From: Terriglobia bacterium
GTDB lineage: Bacteria > Acidobacteriota > Terriglobia > Terriglobales > Acidobacteriaceae
Assembly (NCBI GenBank): GCA_020072585.1
Contig: JAIQGL010000009.1
Span: forward strand, 1-64,000
Reading direction: 5' to 3'
Length of the DNA: 64,000 nt
The notes beneath the pieces are model-generated. The model was not told where the DNA came from, did not search any database, and saw only the letters and a list, made by a program, of their open reading frames with translations. The translations under genes were made by a program, and so were the position numbers. How positions within the stretch are numbered: the first letter of the stretch is position 1; each line of letters begins with the position of its first letter. Shown piece after piece: positions 45,187 to 52,429 of the stretch.

Positions 45187-45375
45187 ATGGCGGAACGCAA
45201 ATCATTTCTCCTGCGCATTGATCCGGTCCTCTGGGCTGACCTGGAGGGCTGGGCGCAGGCAGAGTTGCGCAGCGTGAATGGCCAGATTGAATACATCCTT
45301 CGGCAGGCCGTGAACAAGCGCAAAGGAGAACCGCACGCTCCGCCGCCGCCTTCATCCAAACCGGAAGAAAAGTAG
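45187..45375 (+). CDS. Arc-type ribbon-helix-helix protein
   Basis: 62 residues. [20 protein letters not shown], then [18 protein letters not shown], is a ribbon-helix-helix fold: a short beta-strand that inserts in the DNA major groove and two helices for dimerisation, with the Arc-like [10 protein letters not shown] second helix. The tail is Pro-rich. It probably represses its own operon or the neighbouring SPFH gene. No partner toxin is seen. Confidence 0.72.
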
Positions 45376-45406
45376 ATCTGCGCTGATTTTAAATTTCAAA
45401 TTTAAA

Positions 45407-45422
45407 ATTTCAAATTTGAAAT
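45407..45422. repeat. 16-bp perfect A/T-rich palindrome
   Basis: ATTTCAAATTTGAAAT is fully palindromic, preceded by a further AAATTTCAAATTT (45391-45403). It lies in the 53-bp convergent spacer between the ribbon-helix-helix stop and the next minus-strand stop. A bidirectional terminator or protein-binding site is plausible. Confidence 0.4.
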
Positions 45423-45428
45423 CTTGCT

Positions 45429-45956
45429 TCAGATCACCACGCCATCCATGCGAAAAACACGTTTCTTCGGCTTGAATTCGGGGATCGGTTTAGGTTCCAG
45501 CAGCGGAGCGCCTTCACGCCAGAAGTTTTTGAACTCGCCTTTGTCGCCCGTACGGTAGAAGTGCAGCAGGTAGGCCTGGTCGGCGGCGGTGTAGTTGGCG
45601 AACCACTGGTCTGCGTCCGTGATGCCGATCTTGTGCAGCAAGCTTAGTCCGTAGCGCGCGGCCTCGCCTTCATAAGCCAGGACCTCGGGAAAAAGTTTCT
45701 CGTCCACCGGAGGCTTGTACTGGCGTCCCAGATCAAACGCGCTCTCATTCACGTTCCACTGCACGGTGTGTCCAAACAGATGGCCCAGCAGAAAGAGGCG
45801 CTGCTCCGGCGTGATGGCATAGTCCACATCAATCTCCGCGCCGTCCAGGTCACCGGTGAGCGGGTCGGGGATGTCCCGCGTGATGACGGGGATTCCCCAG
45901 TCGCGCTCCAGATGCTCCTGCACGCGGGCGGCGTATTCAGCAAAGGGGATGGTCAT
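45429..45956 (-). CDS. Hypothetical protein with metallopeptidase-like HxxxH motif
   Basis: 175 residues from the ATG at 45956 (the frame is open to a TTG at 46022). LFLLGHLFGHTVQW contains HxxxH in the place of HExxH, and EIDVDYAITPEQR precedes it. This resembles an ImmA/IrrE-type zinc peptidase with the catalytic Glu lost, so binding rather than cleavage is the safer guess. The C-terminus is Pro/Lys-rich. It is not linked to any obvious partner gene. Confidence 0.55.
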   Translation of the reverse strand: MTIPFAEYAARVQEHLERDWGIPVITRDIPDPLTGDLDGAEIDVDYAITPEQRLFLLGHLFGHTVQWNVNESAFDLGRQYKPPVDEKLFPEVLAYEGEAARYGLSLLHKIGITDADQWFANYTAADQAYLLHFYRTGDKGEFKNFWREGAPLLEPKPIPEFKPKKRVFRMDGVVI

Positions 45957-46518
45957 GGAGGATATTGTAACCCTCTCCTGGCGGGGTTTTTGCTCCCGTC
46001 CGTTGCCTTTCCGATCACTCAATTCTCGCGACTTGATCGGGTGCCTGCCGTGAATGCCGGATGTTATCCATAAGTAAGGTTACGGTTTCCAATTTTGGCA
46101 ATTACCAGATTTTGGCATTTCCGGCGATCTCTTCTGTGGCCCTCTGCCTGCGTTCCCCCAGCCCGACCCCCACCCGGGTATAGTCGTTCTGTTGCAAACA
46201 AACGTCAAACCCCAATTCGACAAGACAGTCAAAAGGCTGTCGAAGCTCTTTTTTCTGCTTGATTCGCCCTCGAATCTGGCTCAATTGCAGCCCTCTGCCT
46301 GTCATTTTCAGCTTATCGTCGGCAGCGGGTTGCAAACTCAGTCCGAGCAATACATTTGGCTAGCTGCCAATTGCTAATTGCTGAATGCTAATTTTCAAAG
46401 ATCTTGTTTCCCCGTGCCTGAGCGCTGCCAAATATAGCGCGCTTCACGCAGCGAATCAATAGCGAATAATAAATTTTCTCCGTCATAAACTGACGCAAGC
46501 CCTCCCGCAAAACGCAAA
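45957..46518. other. Gene-free spacer
   Basis: About 560 bp with no supported gene on either strand. It contains simple near-repeats such as CCAATTGCTAATTGCTGAATGCTAATT (46369-46395). Short open frames across it have no family-like features. Confidence 0.45.
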
Positions 46519-46550
46519 TAAAAAGCCCGCCTTGCGGGCGGGCCTGATTT
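46519..46550 (-). terminator. Rho-independent terminator of the minus-strand gene at 46559
   Basis: On the minus strand GCCCGCC-CGCAA-GGCGGGC is followed by TTTTTATTT: a 7-bp G/C stem (46538-46544 with 46526-46532), a 5-nt loop and a T-run. It begins 9 bp after the stop of the 132-residue gene. Confidence 0.8.
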
Positions 46551-46558
46551 TGCAGATT

Positions 46559-46957
46559 TTATTTTTTTCGTCGTGGTGTTGGTAGTGGTGCTTTGAGCCG
46601 TTTTTCCAGCGCAGTTCGGACCTTGCCGAATTGCACCCAGTCTTTGTGTTCAATCGTGTCAAGCGAACTGAGGACGGCGGTGTTGAGTGTCAGTTGAATT
46701 TCCTGGGTGATTCCGCGTATGTCTTTGAGGTCTTGCGCAGTGAGCAGATGTTCGACCATGTTGAGTCGGGTAACAATACGGTGGAACCCGCGATTGAGCA
46801 GGAACATGGAGCGGTAAACGTCCGCACGTTCCGCGCTGTTAAAATGGGGAGCAGCCAAGTTTGCCTCCAAGTAGGTAGATTTGGTTAGGGCTGCGTTCGT
46901 GCTACTAACACGGCGCAGCCCGCTCTGTTTATAAGCCGACTTCACGAGAGAGAGCAA
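46559..46957 (-). CDS. Hypothetical helical protein
   Basis: Up to 132 residues, predicted all-helical (AERADVYRSMFLLNRGFHRIV, AQDLKDIRGITQEIQLTLN), with a basic PTPRRKK tail. No family is recognised. The outermost start is a TTG at 46957; a GTG at 46945 is an alternative, and the true start is unsure. It has its own terminator directly downstream. It lies next to the CBASS-like operon on the same strand but 80 bp after it, and membership is not supported. Confidence 0.5.
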   Translation of the reverse strand: MLSLVKSAYKQSGLRRVSSTNAALTKSTYLEANLAAPHFNSAERADVYRSMFLLNRGFHRIVTRLNMVEHLLTAQDLKDIRGITQEIQLTLNTAVLSSLDTIEHKDWVQFGKVRTALEKRLKAPLPTPRRKK

Positions 46958-47038
46958 TAGAAAAGTGAAGAAGCAAGAGAATATCGTAGATTGTTAAGTG
47001 AGAGGCGGGGGTCGAGGCGGGTCGGGTGGGATTGTGGC

Positions 47039-47719
47039 TTAACAATTGAAGGTGGGCCGGACTCCCGACTGCGGAACAGCTTTACCCCACGGCACCCGGC
47101 CTTGTTCGGCCGACCGCCACAGGACGAGATCCACGAGATTGAGAGGGTCCGAAGTGTTTTCGGATATAACCTGGCAGAGCCTGTGAGCATCGGCGAAACC
47201 AAAGAAGGCTGCGAGCCTTGTCAGATGGCGATCCGGTTTCGCATATAAGAATCCAAGATTTTTGGCTAAATGGTACGCGGTAATTGGCCCTATGTAAGGC
47301 AATTGTTGGAGGGTTCCAACTGGATCGACCAGGATGCACTCAGTAATATCCTCGAATCCTAATTCATTAACGATCCTGGCAATTTCGACAATCGCACCGA
47401 TCTTCGCTCTATTATTAAAAGCTTCAAGAGCCGTTGATTGACATTGAGTGGCATTTTCAACGATCAGACGTGCCGATTCCCAGTCGCAAAAACAGAGAGA
47501 TATATAACTAAATGCCTTTCTAAGAATAGATTCCTTAAAGCCCGCAGATAAAACCACCCATGCCGCCTCACGAAGCAATTCCTGCTCCGTAAATGACGCC
47601 GAACTCAGTCCGACCTGCCACTGGAGTTCGCTGCCGAATTGACTTTCCTGAATTGCTTTTTTTTCTGCAACGTAGAATTCCAAAACCCTATTGGCTGTCA
47701 ACTCATCTGGGTTTGTCAT
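47039..47719 (-). CDS. cap11: OGG-like HhH DNA-glycosylase-fold protein (Cap11) of type IV CBASS
   Basis: 226 residues from the ATG at 47719, behind GAGGAGAA and 4 bp after the CD-NTase stop. The C-terminal half has a helix-hairpin-helix of the HhH-GPD glycosylase type, LQQLPYIGPITAYHLAKNL, followed by KPDRHLTRLA, whose Asp matches the conserved catalytic Asp. At the position of the OGG1 catalytic Lys (GxK in the hairpin) there is Ile, so Schiff-base lyase chemistry is unlikely. Type IV CBASS loci are defined by QueC-, TGT- and OGG-like ancillary genes. This is the OGG-like one, last in the operon. Its substrate is not known to me. Confidence 0.8.
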   Translation of the reverse strand: MTNPDELTANRVLEFYVAEKKAIQESQFGSELQWQVGLSSASFTEQELLREAAWVVLSAGFKESILRKAFSYISLCFCDWESARLIVENATQCQSTALEAFNNRAKIGAIVEIARIVNELGFEDITECILVDPVGTLQQLPYIGPITAYHLAKNLGFLYAKPDRHLTRLAAFFGFADAHRLCQVISENTSDPLNLVDLVLWRSAEQGRVPWGKAVPQSGVRPTFNC

Positions 47720-47723
47720 TTGG

Positions 47724-48656
47724 CTAGTTCTCCTCATCAAAAATCGCTGCCCATTGCTCCTTTGATGCAGCCGTGCTGGCACTCCGCATGCGTTTTGCGA
47801 TTCCACCTAAGAGATGGCTAGCGTTTTGACGGGCTGGACTATCCGCCTCTCCTAGATATCCATCAACATGCACAGACTGTCCAGTCTTGTCACGGATTGG
47901 AGTGAGAACAAGCTCTTTGGCACGTTCAAAAAACACTGGGAGCATAGCTGCAGTTGTCTTTTTACCCTCGTAGCCCCTAAAGATACCAATTCCTAAATTT
48001 TCAACGTGGTAGCCAGAGAGCTGTTGGCTTTCTGGGAGGTTAGCAATTATCGCTTTTGCCAGTTTTATCGTTGGTACGAGTTTGCCGCCGCACTGGGCGT
48101 TCGTTTGAGTCAGATCAGATCTGAACACATCGGGATTGACTTTCGACCAAGCGTCTCTGCGCGATGATGGAATCCTCAGACCGGTTTCGGAGTGAATTGC
48201 CGGCAGCAATTGGATTTGCATGCCATCCGCATACTCTAAAGTCACCGCCATTCGCCCATGGGTTGCAGTGACGTCATTTCCTAATTTCTCTGAGAGAATC
48301 TTCTCTATCTTCCTTAATGCCTGCCTTGGCGAACCTTCAGCGAGATCAGAACCGTTTATGATGAGCAAAGAATCTATATCACTCAGCCCATCGACATAGG
48401 TATGTTTGGCAACTGAGCCACCGAACAGTTGATCAAATGAACCTTCCAGCCTATCCTCAAGAGCTGCCTTCGCCGTTTCCAAGCGCTCGTTGATTAAATC
48501 CGTATCCCTGGAGTTAAATTCCGCTAGCAGTCCAGCCAAATAGCCAGCAAGTTCCCCCTCAAATTCGACCGCAGACTGTTCAGATTTTTCTCTGAGAATG
48601 TCTTTCAGTCTTTCGGGCTGCCATCCTGTATACGAACTGCCACCGCCACCGCCCAT
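47724..48656 (-). CDS. CD-NTase (cGAS/DncV-like nucleotidyltransferase) with poly-Gly N-terminus
   Basis: 310 residues. Nucleotidyltransferase motif GGSVAKHTYVDGLSDIDSLL (about 79-97) gives the GS turn and the D93-x-D95 metal ligands. The later strand reads GMQIQLLPAI, with Gln where many relatives have the third Asp. It is expected to make a cyclic oligonucleotide alarm on infection. The protein starts MGGGGGSSYTGW: after Met removal the N-terminus would be Gly. I recall a recent report that type IV CBASS QueC-like enzymes attach a deazaguanine to an N-terminal Gly of the CD-NTase. A TTTAGGAGTG site and a 3-bp gap couple it to the TGT-like gene. Confidence 0.82.
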   Translation of the reverse strand: MGGGGGSSYTGWQPERLKDILREKSEQSAVEFEGELAGYLAGLLAEFNSRDTDLINERLETAKAALEDRLEGSFDQLFGGSVAKHTYVDGLSDIDSLLIINGSDLAEGSPRQALRKIEKILSEKLGNDVTATHGRMAVTLEYADGMQIQLLPAIHSETGLRIPSSRRDAWSKVNPDVFRSDLTQTNAQCGGKLVPTIKLAKAIIANLPESQQLSGYHVENLGIGIFRGYEGKKTTAAMLPVFFERAKELVLTPIRDKTGQSVHVDGYLGEADSPARQNASHLLGGIAKRMRSASTAASKEQWAAIFDEEN

Positions 48657-48659
48657 AAA

Positions 48660-49634
48660 CTACACTCCTAAAGATTCTGAGATACTGCGGAACGCCGCCT
48701 GCAACTCCGTGCGATGGTGCTCGAAAACGCTAAAATCGGCGGCCTTCAAGAACCGCCTCATCTCGAGTTGTAAATCTTTTAGGTACGAGTGGTTTGCTGC
48801 CCAACACAGTGCTTCAACGGCTGCAGTCTTCATACTAAAGCCGTATTCTAAAACGCCAAAATTCTGTCGGTATAGCGTTAGTCCATCACTATAGGCATAA
48901 CGCAACCACGTTAGACCATCGAATATGTCCGCTCCAGCAATGAAGTAAAAGAGCGTGGTGACCGTGTCAAGACTGCCAAAGATATGAATCGGTGTTTCAA
49001 GCCCAGCTTTAGTCAGTGCCACTCTCAATCTAGCAATGTTTTCCATTCGCATGAGGATTGAATTTCCGATTTCCTTCTCAGTTAGCCCGATCGCATCGAA
49101 TATATCAAAGTCGCGAACCGCCTTGAGCACAGATTCAAACTGAATATACTTCTGATTCGGCGTCTCGGGTTTGATGAGCAACTCGCGGAGGATATCGGTC
49201 CTCCCCTCAGCAAGCCGTGAAGCTCGTTTAATCTGTTCTGTTAAGGGATGTCTTTCATTCGGATGGTCGTAACTTACAACCACTGTTGGGAGCCTAGATT
49301 TCCAAGTCGTCAATATTTCACTATGAAACTCTTCTGACCACCCTCGCCGACCCGCGTCGGTCTGGTCCTCAACCTCAGACAAGTCGAGTTGCCTAGAAAC
49401 CTCATAGCCACCGCTATCGAGAAAAATCACAATTGAACCGAAATCGAACGGAGGCGTTATCTTTTGGTGGTAAATGTCGTATGCGCTTACAAGAAGGGGC
49501 CCATCTAAAAATTCTTCGCTAGCCTTCAAGATTTTATCAATTTCAGGGACGCGGCTGGAAAAAGAGGGTACCAGCAACGGTGTTCGCTCTATTTCCTGAC
49601 CACCGTAACGCAAGACCCTCCGTTGAGCTAACAT
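48660..49634 (-). CDS. cap10: tRNA-guanine-transglycosylase-like protein (Cap10) of type IV CBASS
   Basis: 324 residues from the ATG at 49634, which has GGAGA upstream and overlaps the QueC-like stop by 7 bp. ATGs at 49667 and 49658 extend it by 11 or 8 residues. FLDSGGYEV matches the DSGGFQ active site of TGT. GADIFDGLTWLRYA matches the second catalytic GxDxFDCVxPTR region, with Trp replacing the usual Pro-Thr context. The C-terminal CxCxxC zinc site of bacterial TGT is not apparent. In type IV CBASS such a protein works with the QueC-like enzyme on deazaguanine chemistry rather than on tRNA queuosine; that is known of the family, not shown here. Confidence 0.8.
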   Translation of the reverse strand: MLAQRRVLRYGGQEIERTPLLVPSFSSRVPEIDKILKASEEFLDGPLLVSAYDIYHQKITPPFDFGSIVIFLDSGGYEVSRQLDLSEVEDQTDAGRRGWSEEFHSEILTTWKSRLPTVVVSYDHPNERHPLTEQIKRASRLAEGRTDILRELLIKPETPNQKYIQFESVLKAVRDFDIFDAIGLTEKEIGNSILMRMENIARLRVALTKAGLETPIHIFGSLDTVTTLFYFIAGADIFDGLTWLRYAYSDGLTLYRQNFGVLEYGFSMKTAAVEALCWAANHSYLKDLQLEMRRFLKAADFSVFEHHRTELQAAFRSISESLGV

Positions 49635-50236
49635 TCCAGAATTCTCCGATCTCGGCATGAAGGGCACCTGCCGCAGGGGTTAGGGTGTCCCATTTCGCAA
49701 CTGTAGGTCAACTCCATAGGTAGACCTGCATCTCGGTAGTAATCAACCACATTTTTTTTGGTCCAATACAAAAAGGGCATATGCAATCTGATGCTCCCAT
49801 CGGAATACTCTTCGAGAACTCTGTCCATTATCTTTGCGAATGCGGGAGAACAATCATAGTAGGGGGGGCCACTGTGGACCCCAAGGGCAATCACACTGAT
49901 TGAAGGACTGGAGAACAAGAATGCGGCCATAATCAGGAAAGCATTGCGTCCACGAATCTCTCCTTTTTTGAAAGTTGGTGCTGGTGTGACTTTGTGACTT
50001 GACAGCGTGAATCCTAAACGCTCGGCCAGCGCTTTCGACGCTCTGCTCTCTGCCTCGGCGGCAGCCTGACCATAGTCCAAAAATATGCAGGAAACCTCAT
50101 ATCCGTCACGACCCAAAAAATGAGCACAGGCTGCAGAGTCAATGCCACCGCTTAACAAGACCATTGCTCGTCGTGCGGGATTTGTCGGGAAAGGCCTTTC
50201 TTTCGACATTGTGGAAGAGATTACTATAATGCACAC
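49628..50236 (-). CDS. cap9: QueC-like 7-cyano-7-deazaguanine-synthase-family protein (Cap9) of type IV CBASS
   Basis: 202 residues from a GTG at 50236; an ATG at 50209 gives 193. The ATP-pyrophosphatase P-loop is VLLSGGIDSAACA. The zinc site is complete at the C-terminus: SCEMGHPNPCGRCPSCRDR. Normal QueC turns carboxydeazaguanine into preQ0 for queuosine. None of the usual partners (queD, queE, folE) is nearby, and the next genes are TGT-like, CD-NTase and OGG-like, so this is the CBASS paralogue. It is the first gene of the minus-strand operon and shares a 76-bp promoter spacer with the divergent effector. Confidence 0.82.
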   Translation of the reverse strand: MCIIVISSTMSKERPFPTNPARRAMVLLSGGIDSAACAHFLGRDGYEVSCIFLDYGQAAAEAESRASKALAERLGFTLSSHKVTPAPTFKKGEIRGRNAFLIMAAFLFSSPSISVIALGVHSGPPYYDCSPAFAKIMDRVLEEYSDGSIRLHMPFLYWTKKNVVDYYRDAGLPMELTYSCEMGHPNPCGRCPSCRDRRILEC

Positions 50237-50312
50237 ATGGTACTAGAGCCGCAACTAATCTGTAGAGTGCGGCTCGATTTTATTGAGCTTTTCGCCAGTT
50301 TTGGAACGGTTT
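50237..50312. promoter_or_regulatory. Divergent promoter spacer of the CBASS-like locus
   Basis: Short spacer between the QueC-like gene (minus) and the probable effector (plus). A TATAAT lies just inside the QueC-like 5' end (50226-50231) with TTCGAC about 18 bp upstream, a plausible plus-strand promoter for the effector. GGAACG at 50303-50308 would be its ribosome-binding site. Confidence 0.35.
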
Positions 50313-51476
50313 ATGAATCTTAGAGGCAGACGAGTACACATTGCCGGCAGTGCGGATGTTAGAACTACTGCTGGGCTTCTAAATTATGCTCATTCTCTAA
50401 CTAAGGAGCTAACGATCCTCTTGGCGCGACTCGGCTCGACTTTTCTGATTGACTTTGGACGCGAGCCCCGAAGCGGCGAAGAGGGAAGAGGCCCCGCAAT
50501 TGTTTTCTATTGGACCATCCTTGAAGCCGTGAGCAGCCTGATGGAGAGCGGTGCGTTAGCTTCTTCTGGCCAAGGTTCTCTTTTGCTCAGCCTCGCCACT
50601 TCAAAGACTGATACACAGATTCCCCAAGAGCGACGAGGGCTTTATTCAATGCTGCGTCAGTCAGGAGCAGTTTCTATGGAGTTTGTAGCTCCCGGCTGGA
50701 ATTCTGGTGCGGTTCGGCGAGAACGACAGGCGCAGCTAGGCGATATCCTAATTGCGGTGAGCGGCGGCGAAGGCATTGAACATCTAGCGCGTGAGTATTC
50801 TCGAAGAGGAAAGCCAGTCATTCCGCTTGATTTGAATCTGGGGGCCAGCACTAGGGACGGAACCGGGGGAGCGGCCAGAATGTTTGGCGAAGCGCTCGTC
50901 GACTCCGTTCCCTACTTCGCCATTAAGGTGGGGCAGTCAGGCTCAGAATTGTTAGACCGAACGAGAACGCGCCAAGGCCAGACTCCTGTCCACGAGGTGG
51001 CCGCAAGCATTCTCCGACTGCTCGACGCCGTCACACCTCCCCGTGCATTTTATGTACGAATGCTAAATAAGTCCTTACCTCAATTTGATGAGGTGGAGGC
51101 GTTTTTTCGAAGCGTGGTCGATCCTATCGCAATGGAATTTGGATTTGAACCTCTGGAAATAGGAATTGGCGAGAATGACTACGCTTGGATGAATCAGGCG
51201 ATCTTTGAAGGTCTTTACCGTAGCCAGGTGGCAATCGTTGATCTAACGGGAGTGAGAGCAAATTGCTTGATCGAGCTTGGATATGCATTGGGAAACGCCC
51301 AGCGCGTGATCGTCACAGCGCAAATCGGAACGCTCCTGCCTTTTGATTCAAGTTGCTTAGAGACGTACATGTGGGATATGAAATCGGAAAGCGCCACACT
51401 ACAACGAGAATTGAAAACTTATTGGACAAGAAACTTTAATAGGCCTCCTCTTGTGACTCCCCGAGGATCACGGTAA
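50313..51476 (+). CDS. Probable CBASS effector: SLOG-like plus nucleoside-deoxyribosyltransferase/TIR-like protein
   Basis: 387 residues from the ATG at 50313 (a TTG at 50283 is also in frame). The N-terminal domain (about 1-185; RRVHIAGSADVRTTAGLLNY, LARLGSTFLIDFGREP, GDILIAVSGGEGIEHLAREY) has the Rossmann-like GGxG features of SLOG/STALD domains that bind nucleotide signals. The C-terminal domain (about 250-375; IGENDYAWMNQAIFEGLYRS, VAIVDLTGVRANCLIELGYA, AQRVIVTAQIG) has the layout of nucleoside 2-deoxyribosyltransferase/TIR-like enzymes, including a Glu in a conserved place. A natural reading is signal binding by the first domain and NAD or nucleotide breakdown by the second. It is divergent from the Cap9-Cap10-CD-NTase-Cap11 operon. 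No other effector is present. Confidence 0.65.
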   Translation: MNLRGRRVHIAGSADVRTTAGLLNYAHSLTKELTILLARLGSTFLIDFGREPRSGEEGRGPAIVFYWTILEAVSSLMESGALASSGQGSLLLSLATSKTDTQIPQERRGLYSMLRQSGAVSMEFVAPGWNSGAVRRERQAQLGDILIAVSGGEGIEHLAREYSRRGKPVIPLDLNLGASTRDGTGGAARMFGEALVDSVPYFAIKVGQSGSELLDRTRTRQGQTPVHEVAASILRLLDAVTPPRAFYVRMLNKSLPQFDEVEAFFRSVVDPIAMEFGFEPLEIGIGENDYAWMNQAIFEGLYRSQVAIVDLTGVRANCLIELGYALGNAQRVIVTAQIGTLLPFDSSCLETYMWDMKSESATLQRELKTYWTRNFNRPPLVTPRGSR

Positions 51477-51631
51477 TTGCTGACACATGCCGAATTAGGG
51501 CAGCACAGGATTAAACATCTCCCCTTAACCCCAAAGACCCAGCCCCATAAATATTCCGCATCTACTCTGGATCTCTATAGACTGCACGGAACGCCACCGT
51601 CAATCACGCCACTCGGAGAGAGTTCCCCAAA

Positions 51632-52429
51632 ATGAAAAAACTGACGGACCTGTTACGTCCGAGTCTTGTCGTCCTTACTCTTACGGTTGCTATTGCTGCG
51701 CTTGCCGGATGCGGCGGGCAGTCGACGCCACAGTCCAGCGCCGTGGCAACGCCGACGCCGGGAGCGTCCCCGAGCCCCGGCAACCCCAATTCCACCACCA
51801 TCCCGGACATACAGAAGCTTGCCGGCTGGGAGATCTGTTCCGCTTCCTGCGCCGGAACGGCGCCGGCGGTCTTTTCCATGACGCAAGGGATAGCCTCGCC
51901 TTCGCTGAGCGGCTCTTCCGCCAGGTTCCAGCTGCTGGCCGGGACGCAGCCCTTTGGCGGCGTGTTGTGGTTCAAGTTTCTGGGAGCGCACAACAGTGCC
52001 ACCCACTTTATTTATGACCTGAACTTTTACGTGGACAATCCGGCAGCGGCGCAGGCCCTGGAGTTCAATGTGACGCAGAGCGCCGGAGGCAACCGTTATA
52101 ACTTTTCCACGCAGTGCGACCTTGCGGGCGCGCACACCTGGCGCGTCTGGGATCCTGTGGGGTTGAAGTGGGTGGCCTCTGCCGTTACCTGCGCGCAGCC
52201 TGCGGCGAACTCATGGAACCACTTGGTCTGGGAATTTGAGCGCCAGCCCGGCGGCAGTGTGATCTTTACCGCCGTAACGGTGAACGGCACGCGCGGCGTG
52301 GTGAACCTGAGCATGCCGCATACCGCTGATTCCAACAACGGCCTGGACATCGCCTATCAATCCGATGCCAACAGCGCAGGAACGCCCTACACGGTGTGGC
52401 TGGACAAGGTGAGCCTGACATTCTGGTGA
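51632..52429 (+). CDS. Lipoprotein of unknown function
   Basis: 265 residues with a lipoprotein signal (hydrophobic about 10-25, lipobox LAGC at about 25-28), a Pro/Ser/Thr-rich linker (about 30-55), then a beta-rich domain of about 200 residues (WFKFLGAHNSATHFIYDLNF, WNHLVWEFERQPGGSVIFTA, YTVWLDKVSLTFW). The fold resembles concanavalin-like/lectin domains seen in Acidobacteria lipoproteins. Cysteines at CSASC and C..C could form disulfides. It is probably anchored in the outer membrane and binds glycans. It stands alone, with 290 bp to the next gene. Confidence 0.7.
   Translation: MKKLTDLLRPSLVVLTLTVAIAALAGCGGQSTPQSSAVATPTPGASPSPGNPNSTTIPDIQKLAGWEICSASCAGTAPAVFSMTQGIASPSLSGSSARFQLLAGTQPFGGVLWFKFLGAHNSATHFIYDLNFYVDNPAAAQALEFNVTQSAGGNRYNFSTQCDLAGAHTWRVWDPVGLKWVASAVTCAQPAANSWNHLVWEFERQPGGSVIFTAVTVNGTRGVVNLSMPHTADSNNGLDIAYQSDANSAGTPYTVWLDKVSLTFW

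Follow-up and report, generated by a model that had tools for sequence, protein, structure and literature searches.

A type IV CBASS locus of a Terriglobia bacterium with a divergent gene for a SLOG-TIR-like effector

The stretch of DNA analyzed here (the window) comprises 64,000 nucleotides (nt) from a Terriglobia bacterium of the Acidobacteriota (assembly GCA_020072585.1, contig JAIQGL010000009.1, positions 1 to 64,000 of the forward strand) and carries a type IV cyclic oligonucleotide-based anti-phage signaling system (CBASS) that is ordinary in its core and unusual in its effector. The core consists of four genes on the minus strand, all with open reading frames: cap9 (49628..50209), encoding a QueC-like ATP-dependent ligase of 193 residues; cap10 (48660..49634), encoding a protein of the tRNA-guanine transglycosylase (TGT) family of 324 residues; cdnD (47724..48656), encoding a CD-NTase of 310 residues; and cap11 (47039..47719), encoding an 8-oxoguanine glycosylase (OGG)-like HhH-GPD protein of 226 residues. 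Each product aligned with almost the whole of its PADLOC model (QueC for Cap9, E 1.9e-68; TGT for Cap10, E 3.3e-117; Cyclase for CdnD, E 4.4e-116; OGG for Cap11, E 6.1e-82), and E-values of this order exclude chance matches. The ATG start codons taken (50209, 49634, 48656, and 47719) were chosen by alignment to solved proteins and by eye for sequence resembling a ribosome-binding site. With these starts cap9 and cap10 overlap by 7 nt, and gaps of 3 and 4 nt separate cap10 from cdnD and cdnD from cap11, bearing out an earlier interpretation made without database searches (the sequence-only reading), which had described four overlapping or tightly spaced minus-strand genes for QueC-like, TGT-like, CD-NTase, and OGG-like proteins. 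That reading placed the locus at 47039-51476. The start holds, but the core ends at about 50209, and position 51476 belongs to a fifth gene, on the plus strand (50313..51476), which ends there and which the reading had overlooked. This gene, divergent from cap9 with its start 103 bp away, encodes a 387-residue protein that matches the PADLOC effector model PDLC00733 and is not the usual two-transmembrane (2TM) effector.

The type IV identity of the core, which the sequence-only reading had proposed, is almost certain. In sequence searches three of the proteins were alike over nearly their full lengths (E 1e-53 to 1e-94) to those of the solved type IV CBASS 9NTN/9NTO (Wassarman et al. 2025, PMC11996544): Cap9 matched Cap9 of 9nto (E 1.3e-53), Cap10 matched Cap10 of 9ntn (E 1.8e-89), and CdnD matched CdnD of 9ntn/9nto (E 1.3e-94), its sole PDB match at E 0.001. 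The likeness is drawn from the core proteins only, and the window has a divergent SLOG-TIR effector gene. CdnD also matched Pfam SMODS and, at 274 bits against a cut-off of 200, the NCBIfam model NF041117 for the CBASS oligonucleotide cyclase, and its CD-NTase active site is intact (GSVAKHTYVDGLSDID). The outcomes that the sequence-only reading had set as its own refutation, the lack of a profile match for Cap9 to Cap11 or a nucleotidyltransferase grouping outside CBASS, were thus looked for, and the searches returned PADLOC matches for all of them and a CBASS cyclase.

The motifs of the core proteins are consistent with the chemistry reported for their relatives. Cap9 keeps all six of the motifs given for this protein in PMC13329287 (the site for ATP and 7-carboxy-7-deazaguanine, CDG) and contains a Y-x-D-C motif. 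As described in PMC13279940, the glycine to which Cap9 attaches CDG is the N-terminal one of a CD-NTase that starts MGGS, and Y115 and D117 of Cap9 hold the base. Cap10 of the solved relative is described as remodeled to bind the CD-NTase N-terminus modified with 7-amido-7-deazaguanine (NDG) (PMC11996544, PMC13279940, PMC13329287). CdnD of the window begins MGGGGGSS, and the aligned CdnD of 9NTN, which shares the glycine-rich N-terminus, begins GGSGGS. By analogy, we predict that Cap9 joins CDG to the N-terminus of CdnD at Gly2, the putative NDG attachment site, within the run of glycine codons for residues 2-6 (48639..48653, minus strand). A Met-Gly start is possible in 15 of 17 aligned type IV CdnD proteins, although in four of these (L014, L018, L020, and L024) it is obtained only from a methionine downstream of the mechanically called start; the other two, L017 (MAGG) and L022 (MTGG), have no Met-Gly start as read.

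When Cap11 was searched as a single sequence against solved sequences, nothing was found beyond E 0.36. A profile of 15 Cap11 relatives reached the 8-oxoguanine glycosylases, the best match being 9O00 (E 6.9e-13). The HhH-GPD aspartate is kept, D163 being invariant among the 15 aligned proteins. At the position of a lysine of 9O00 that we take to be its lyase residue, 13 of the 15 have isoleucine, valine, or threonine (isoleucine in the window), and lysine is kept in L019 and L020, the most distant of the set. In two type IV loci with Cap9, Cap10, and CdnD, L022 (7400-11166) and L062 (4436-7509), Cap11 was not found by tblastn with the Cap11 proteins of the window and of L020 as queries, and it may be dispensable in such loci.

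The folds of QueC and TGT are those of queuosine enzymes, and Pfam places Cap9 in QueC above its cut-off, observations that would fit a metabolic cluster for queuosine or another 7-deazaguanine. We consider such a cluster extremely improbable here. Cap9 scores far under the NCBIfam QueC cut-off (88 vs. 150 bits) and Cap10 under that for tRNA-guanine transglycosylase (12.6 vs. 47.6 bits), and neither a CD-NTase nor an OGG-like gene has a place in a queuosine cluster. Moreover, in the host genome (97% complete; 6.9 Mb in 74 contigs) contig C64 carries a full-length QueC (223 bits) with a QueD-like open reading frame (ORF) nearby, as judged by eye, and contig C1 a QueE-like gene (89 bits, under the 206-bit cut-off of the Bacillus subtilis-type model). 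Because these genes lie elsewhere in the genome, and given the NCBIfam scores, we rejected a metabolic reading of the QueC/TGT pair, against which the sequence-only reading had argued from the lack of other queuosine genes nearby. The presence of the QueC-, QueD-, and QueE-like genes also makes it probable that the host produces CDG. Two type IV operons of Solirubrobacterales have their own QueE (TIGR04508) and QueD (L019, 10653-11632; L020, 4765-5762). With the operon QueE as query, the operon copy was the sole match in both of these genomes (one of them a small metagenome-assembled genome), and a weak QueE match was found in two of four other type IV genomes, the reach of the query being limited. 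These operons apparently supply their own CDG for Cap9, and an operon-borne sole QueE is consistent with a need of Cap9 for this compound.

The protein family of the effector is already known, as PADLOC has an effector model for it: PDLC00733, a TIR effector, matched nearly the whole length of the protein (E 1.7e-85; residues 12-392 of the ORF when started at TTG). The N-terminal part (residues 3-237) is a SLOG domain of the Cap17-like_N type, matching PF18178, the SLOG family of Cap17, at E 1.6e-46, and the C-terminal part (about residues 246-387) is TIR-like. Eight relatives, 31-36% identical, were aligned with the window protein, and in the C-terminal half there is a motif N-x-x-x-E-x-G-x-A with a glutamate that is invariant among the nine and would be catalytic. 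Six of the nine matched Pfam Nuc_deoxyrib_tr weakly (best E 0.0015; no match for the window protein) and one, that of L022, has a CAP12-type TIR by Pfam. When the PDB was searched by profile, four weak matches were obtained: three to TIR proteins (the interleukin-1 receptor accessory protein, PycTIR, and Cap12; E 0.36-1.4) and one to a Moco carrier protein (E 1.3). An AlphaFold model from two sequences was poor (mean predicted local distance difference test score 47), and a Foldseek search with it, in which DprA and Moco carrier proteins ranked first, gives a hint for the N-terminal half only. We consider it fairly likely that the effector performs TIR-type nucleotide cleavage.

PF18178 is named the "TIR- and PNP-associating SLOG family" in a table of PMC10952713, which assigns Cap17 to CBASS of types I and III, not of type IV. 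Cap17 of the type III CBASS of E. coli upec-117, an ATP nucleosidase (PMC9122588), shares this N-terminal family with the window effector, but its catalytic domain is of the PNP type, whereas the C-terminus of the window effector is TIR-like and a Pfam search of the window protein at E up to 1 gave no match to a PNP domain.

For comparison of effectors between type IV systems we used 18 distinct loci, of which 17 came from a scan of genome contigs (18 loci, L019 and L021 being the same) and one, L062, from a plasmid search. The gene after CdnD encodes a 2TM (SLATT-like) effector in 17 of the 18, as called by a match to PDLC00681 in all 15 loci scanned and by tblastn in L019/L021 and L023; the 2TM protein of L007 is SLATT-like by NCBIfam, under the cut-off. 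In the eighteenth, L022 of Candidatus Poribacteria, Cap9, Cap10, and CdnD are followed directly by a protein with a PF18178 SLOG and a TIR domain, in place of the 2TM effector. This locus resembles the window in the kind of effector and differs in that the effector gene is co-directional with the core and downstream of it, its TIR domain is of the CAP12/Pycsar family PF10137, no Cap11 was found, and its core proteins are 31-37% identical to those of the window. In the window itself neither a 2TM nor a SLOG-TIR gene follows cdnD. A hidden or broken 2TM gene was rejected: tblastn of the window with five type IV 2TM proteins gave one 16-residue match (E 0.34), which lies elsewhere in the window, and a profile search of the whole host genome for a 2TM effector was negative, while the effector was detected in all three positive-control genomes. 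The absence of the usual effector after CdnD could also suggest a decayed or effector-less remnant of a type IV CBASS beside an unrelated gene. This is very unlikely, since the core genes, all four of full length, have intact motifs and junctions, and the neighboring gene is a CBASS effector by profile.

The closest core that we found is that of L007 (Acidobacteria bacterium palsa_347), with identities by blastp of 60% for Cap10, 55% for CdnD, 49% for Cap9, and 58% for Cap11. Unlike the window, L007 has a 2TM effector gene between those for CdnD and Cap11, and its genome has no PDLC00733 match. In a tree of Cap9, Cap10, and CdnD (18 tips, 819 columns) the window was sister to L007 with a split support of 100, and because this sister has the 2TM gene, the change of effector would most simply be placed on the branch of the window. 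A Fitch count gave two changes on the 18 tips, the root state being ambiguous because L022 also has a SLOG-TIR effector. A separate observation concerns L012, where a TIR-like ORF (994-2184) lies upstream of cap9, in addition to a 2TM gene. This ORF matches the window effector weakly and locally (28%, E 3e-5), so that a type IV core could have a second effector alongside it.

Outside type IV, the relatives of the effector whose neighborhoods we examined are found with type III CBASS. A tblastn search with the effector returned 28 plasmid records, 25 of which cover at least 80% of it, and we examined the neighborhoods of six of the 28 (Bradyrhizobium and other plasmids) together with that of genome G179 (L057). 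In all seven, which lie outside type IV, the effector relative (32-36% identical) sits in a type III CBASS with genes for HORMA and TRIP13 directly upstream, by PADLOC, in place of Cap9 to Cap11; the HORMA protein of L060, as annotated, covers only part of its model. A 3'-5' exonuclease is annotated downstream of the effector in five of the six plasmids (confirmed by profile in L058, and found by profile also in L057), and four of the six also have an annotated nucleotidyltransferase or CBASS cyclase, the one tested by profile (L059) belonging to the PADLOC clade PDLC00808. By comparison, neither HORMA nor TRIP13 was found among the 15 window proteins scanned by profile. Of the 396 genomes sampled from the phylum, 60 have a PDLC00733 match; among the matches listed, only those of the host and of G179 are full length, both in genes that adjoin a CBASS core, and the others cover mostly the TIR-like part. 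Two further partial matches occur in the host, on contigs C40 and C43.

Contig C43 of the host has a separate type III CBASS (L091, 3331-7122) with a cyclase, HORMA, TRIP13, and a TIR-SAVED effector. Its cyclase belongs to PDLC00808, the clade of the cyclase beside the plasmid relative in L059, and together with the seven type III neighborhoods this leads to an alternative in which the type IV core is complete and the SLOG-TIR gene serves another pathway, e.g., as a second output of type III CBASS, the core being effector-less or having its effector unlinked. We view this alternative as quite unlikely, because the type III locus already has its TIR-SAVED effector alongside and lies on another contig, the SLOG-TIR gene is close to cap9, in the type IV locus L022 a SLOG-TIR gene directly follows that for CdnD, and the host genome gave no match to a 2TM type IV effector. 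A further scenario, in which the soluble effector came from the type III pool and was wired by a divergent promoter to the type IV core, whose cyclase is licensed by nucleobase conjugation, with both CBASS of the host perhaps sharing or cross-reading one signal and effector, is unlikely and we offer it tentatively.

We regard it as likely that the SLOG-TIR effector belongs to the type IV core of the window, and a type IV core with an exchanged effector is, to us, the likely explanation of the locus as a whole, mechanism included. Several points weigh against it. The effector gene is on the opposite strand and so outside the core transcript; a second type IV locus with the same effector in the same order was not found; the TIR-like assignment of the C-terminus draws on one PADLOC model, weak Pfam and PDB matches, and a poor structure model; and with a cyclase of clade PDLC00808 in the resident type III CBASS, the effector could answer that signal. 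As to orientation, capW and cap17 of the type III CBASS of E. coli upec-117 are probably transcribed from a reverse promoter, opposed to that of the core, and protection there needs Cap17 (PMC9122588), so that an effector opposed to its core is not odd. A type IV CBASS with a SLOG-TIR effector was not found in the literature searched, which left out the main type IV and classification papers and is no proof of absence.

Type IV CBASS are described as few in number (PMC10002423), and the sequence-only reading knew of few, if any, examples from Acidobacteriota. This rarity was confirmed by our census, in which Cap10 was present in a single genome, that of the host, among 396 sampled from the phylum. 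The window is not alone, since a type IV locus also occurs in L007, which is labeled Acidobacteria and comes from another collection. A census of Cap10 in the class around G432 likewise gave one of 369 genomes, the central genome itself. Among viral contigs, no relative was detected with one Cap10 query or with two queries for the effector, one of them a protein and the other an alignment.

The locus looks acquired, perhaps with core and effector as one unit. In two genomes of the same genus the flanks are colinear with those of the window, and 45351-51524 of the window (6.2 kb) corresponds to 2.1 kb in one (L077) and 45604-51526 (5.9 kb) to 1.2 kb in the other (L078). Core and effector are both missing from the site in these two genomes: when both loci were searched by tblastn, the best match to any of the five proteins was at E 0.30. 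The G+C content is 0.48-0.50 in the core genes and 0.52 in the effector gene, vs. 0.54 and 0.58 in the flanks. No convincing flanking repeats were found as ends of a mobile element, and the only tRNA gene of the window is 7 kb away.

A promoter-like site 5' of the effector gene (50203..50230, plus strand; TCGACA-16-TATAAT, 11/12) is weak evidence, the region having five promoter-like sites vs. 5.0 in shuffled sequence. A terminator-like hairpin with a T run (46523..46545, minus strand; nine pairs, seven of them G-C) lies 3' of cap11 and of an unrelated 132-residue ORF, in a region with nine terminator-like sites vs. 5.9 expected. This ORF (46559-46957, minus strand), which had been a candidate for a fifth core gene and has no confident family match, was rejected as a member of a dispersed family of the genus: copies occur at 13 places in the host genome and 14 in G399, in seven of nine genomes of the genus and in none of 52 others, several with stops. 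On the other side, 51632-52429 (plus strand) is an ORF that is lipoprotein-like by eye, without a Pfam or PADLOC match. It belongs to a family of paralogs that, in this genus, can occupy as many as 10 places in one genome. The PADLOC matches of an FtsK-like neighbor were set aside, as we took them to reflect shared ATPase domains.

In the mechanism that we propose, Cap9 would use ATP and CDG made by the host to place 7-amido-7-deazaguanine on Gly2 of CdnD, and Cap10 would hold the modified N-terminus, both steps being modeled on the published relatives; Cap11, with its glycosylase fold, has no assigned step in this scheme. Upon phage infection CdnD would make a cyclic oligonucleotide, the presumed ligand of the SLOG domain of the divergent effector, whose TIR-like domain would then cleave NAD+ or a related nucleotide and so stop the infected cell. 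A soluble, nucleotide-sensing effector would provide direct access to the question of which second messenger is made by type IV CBASS, and, if our interpretation is correct, effectors move between CBASS types even where protein deazaguanylation regulates the core.

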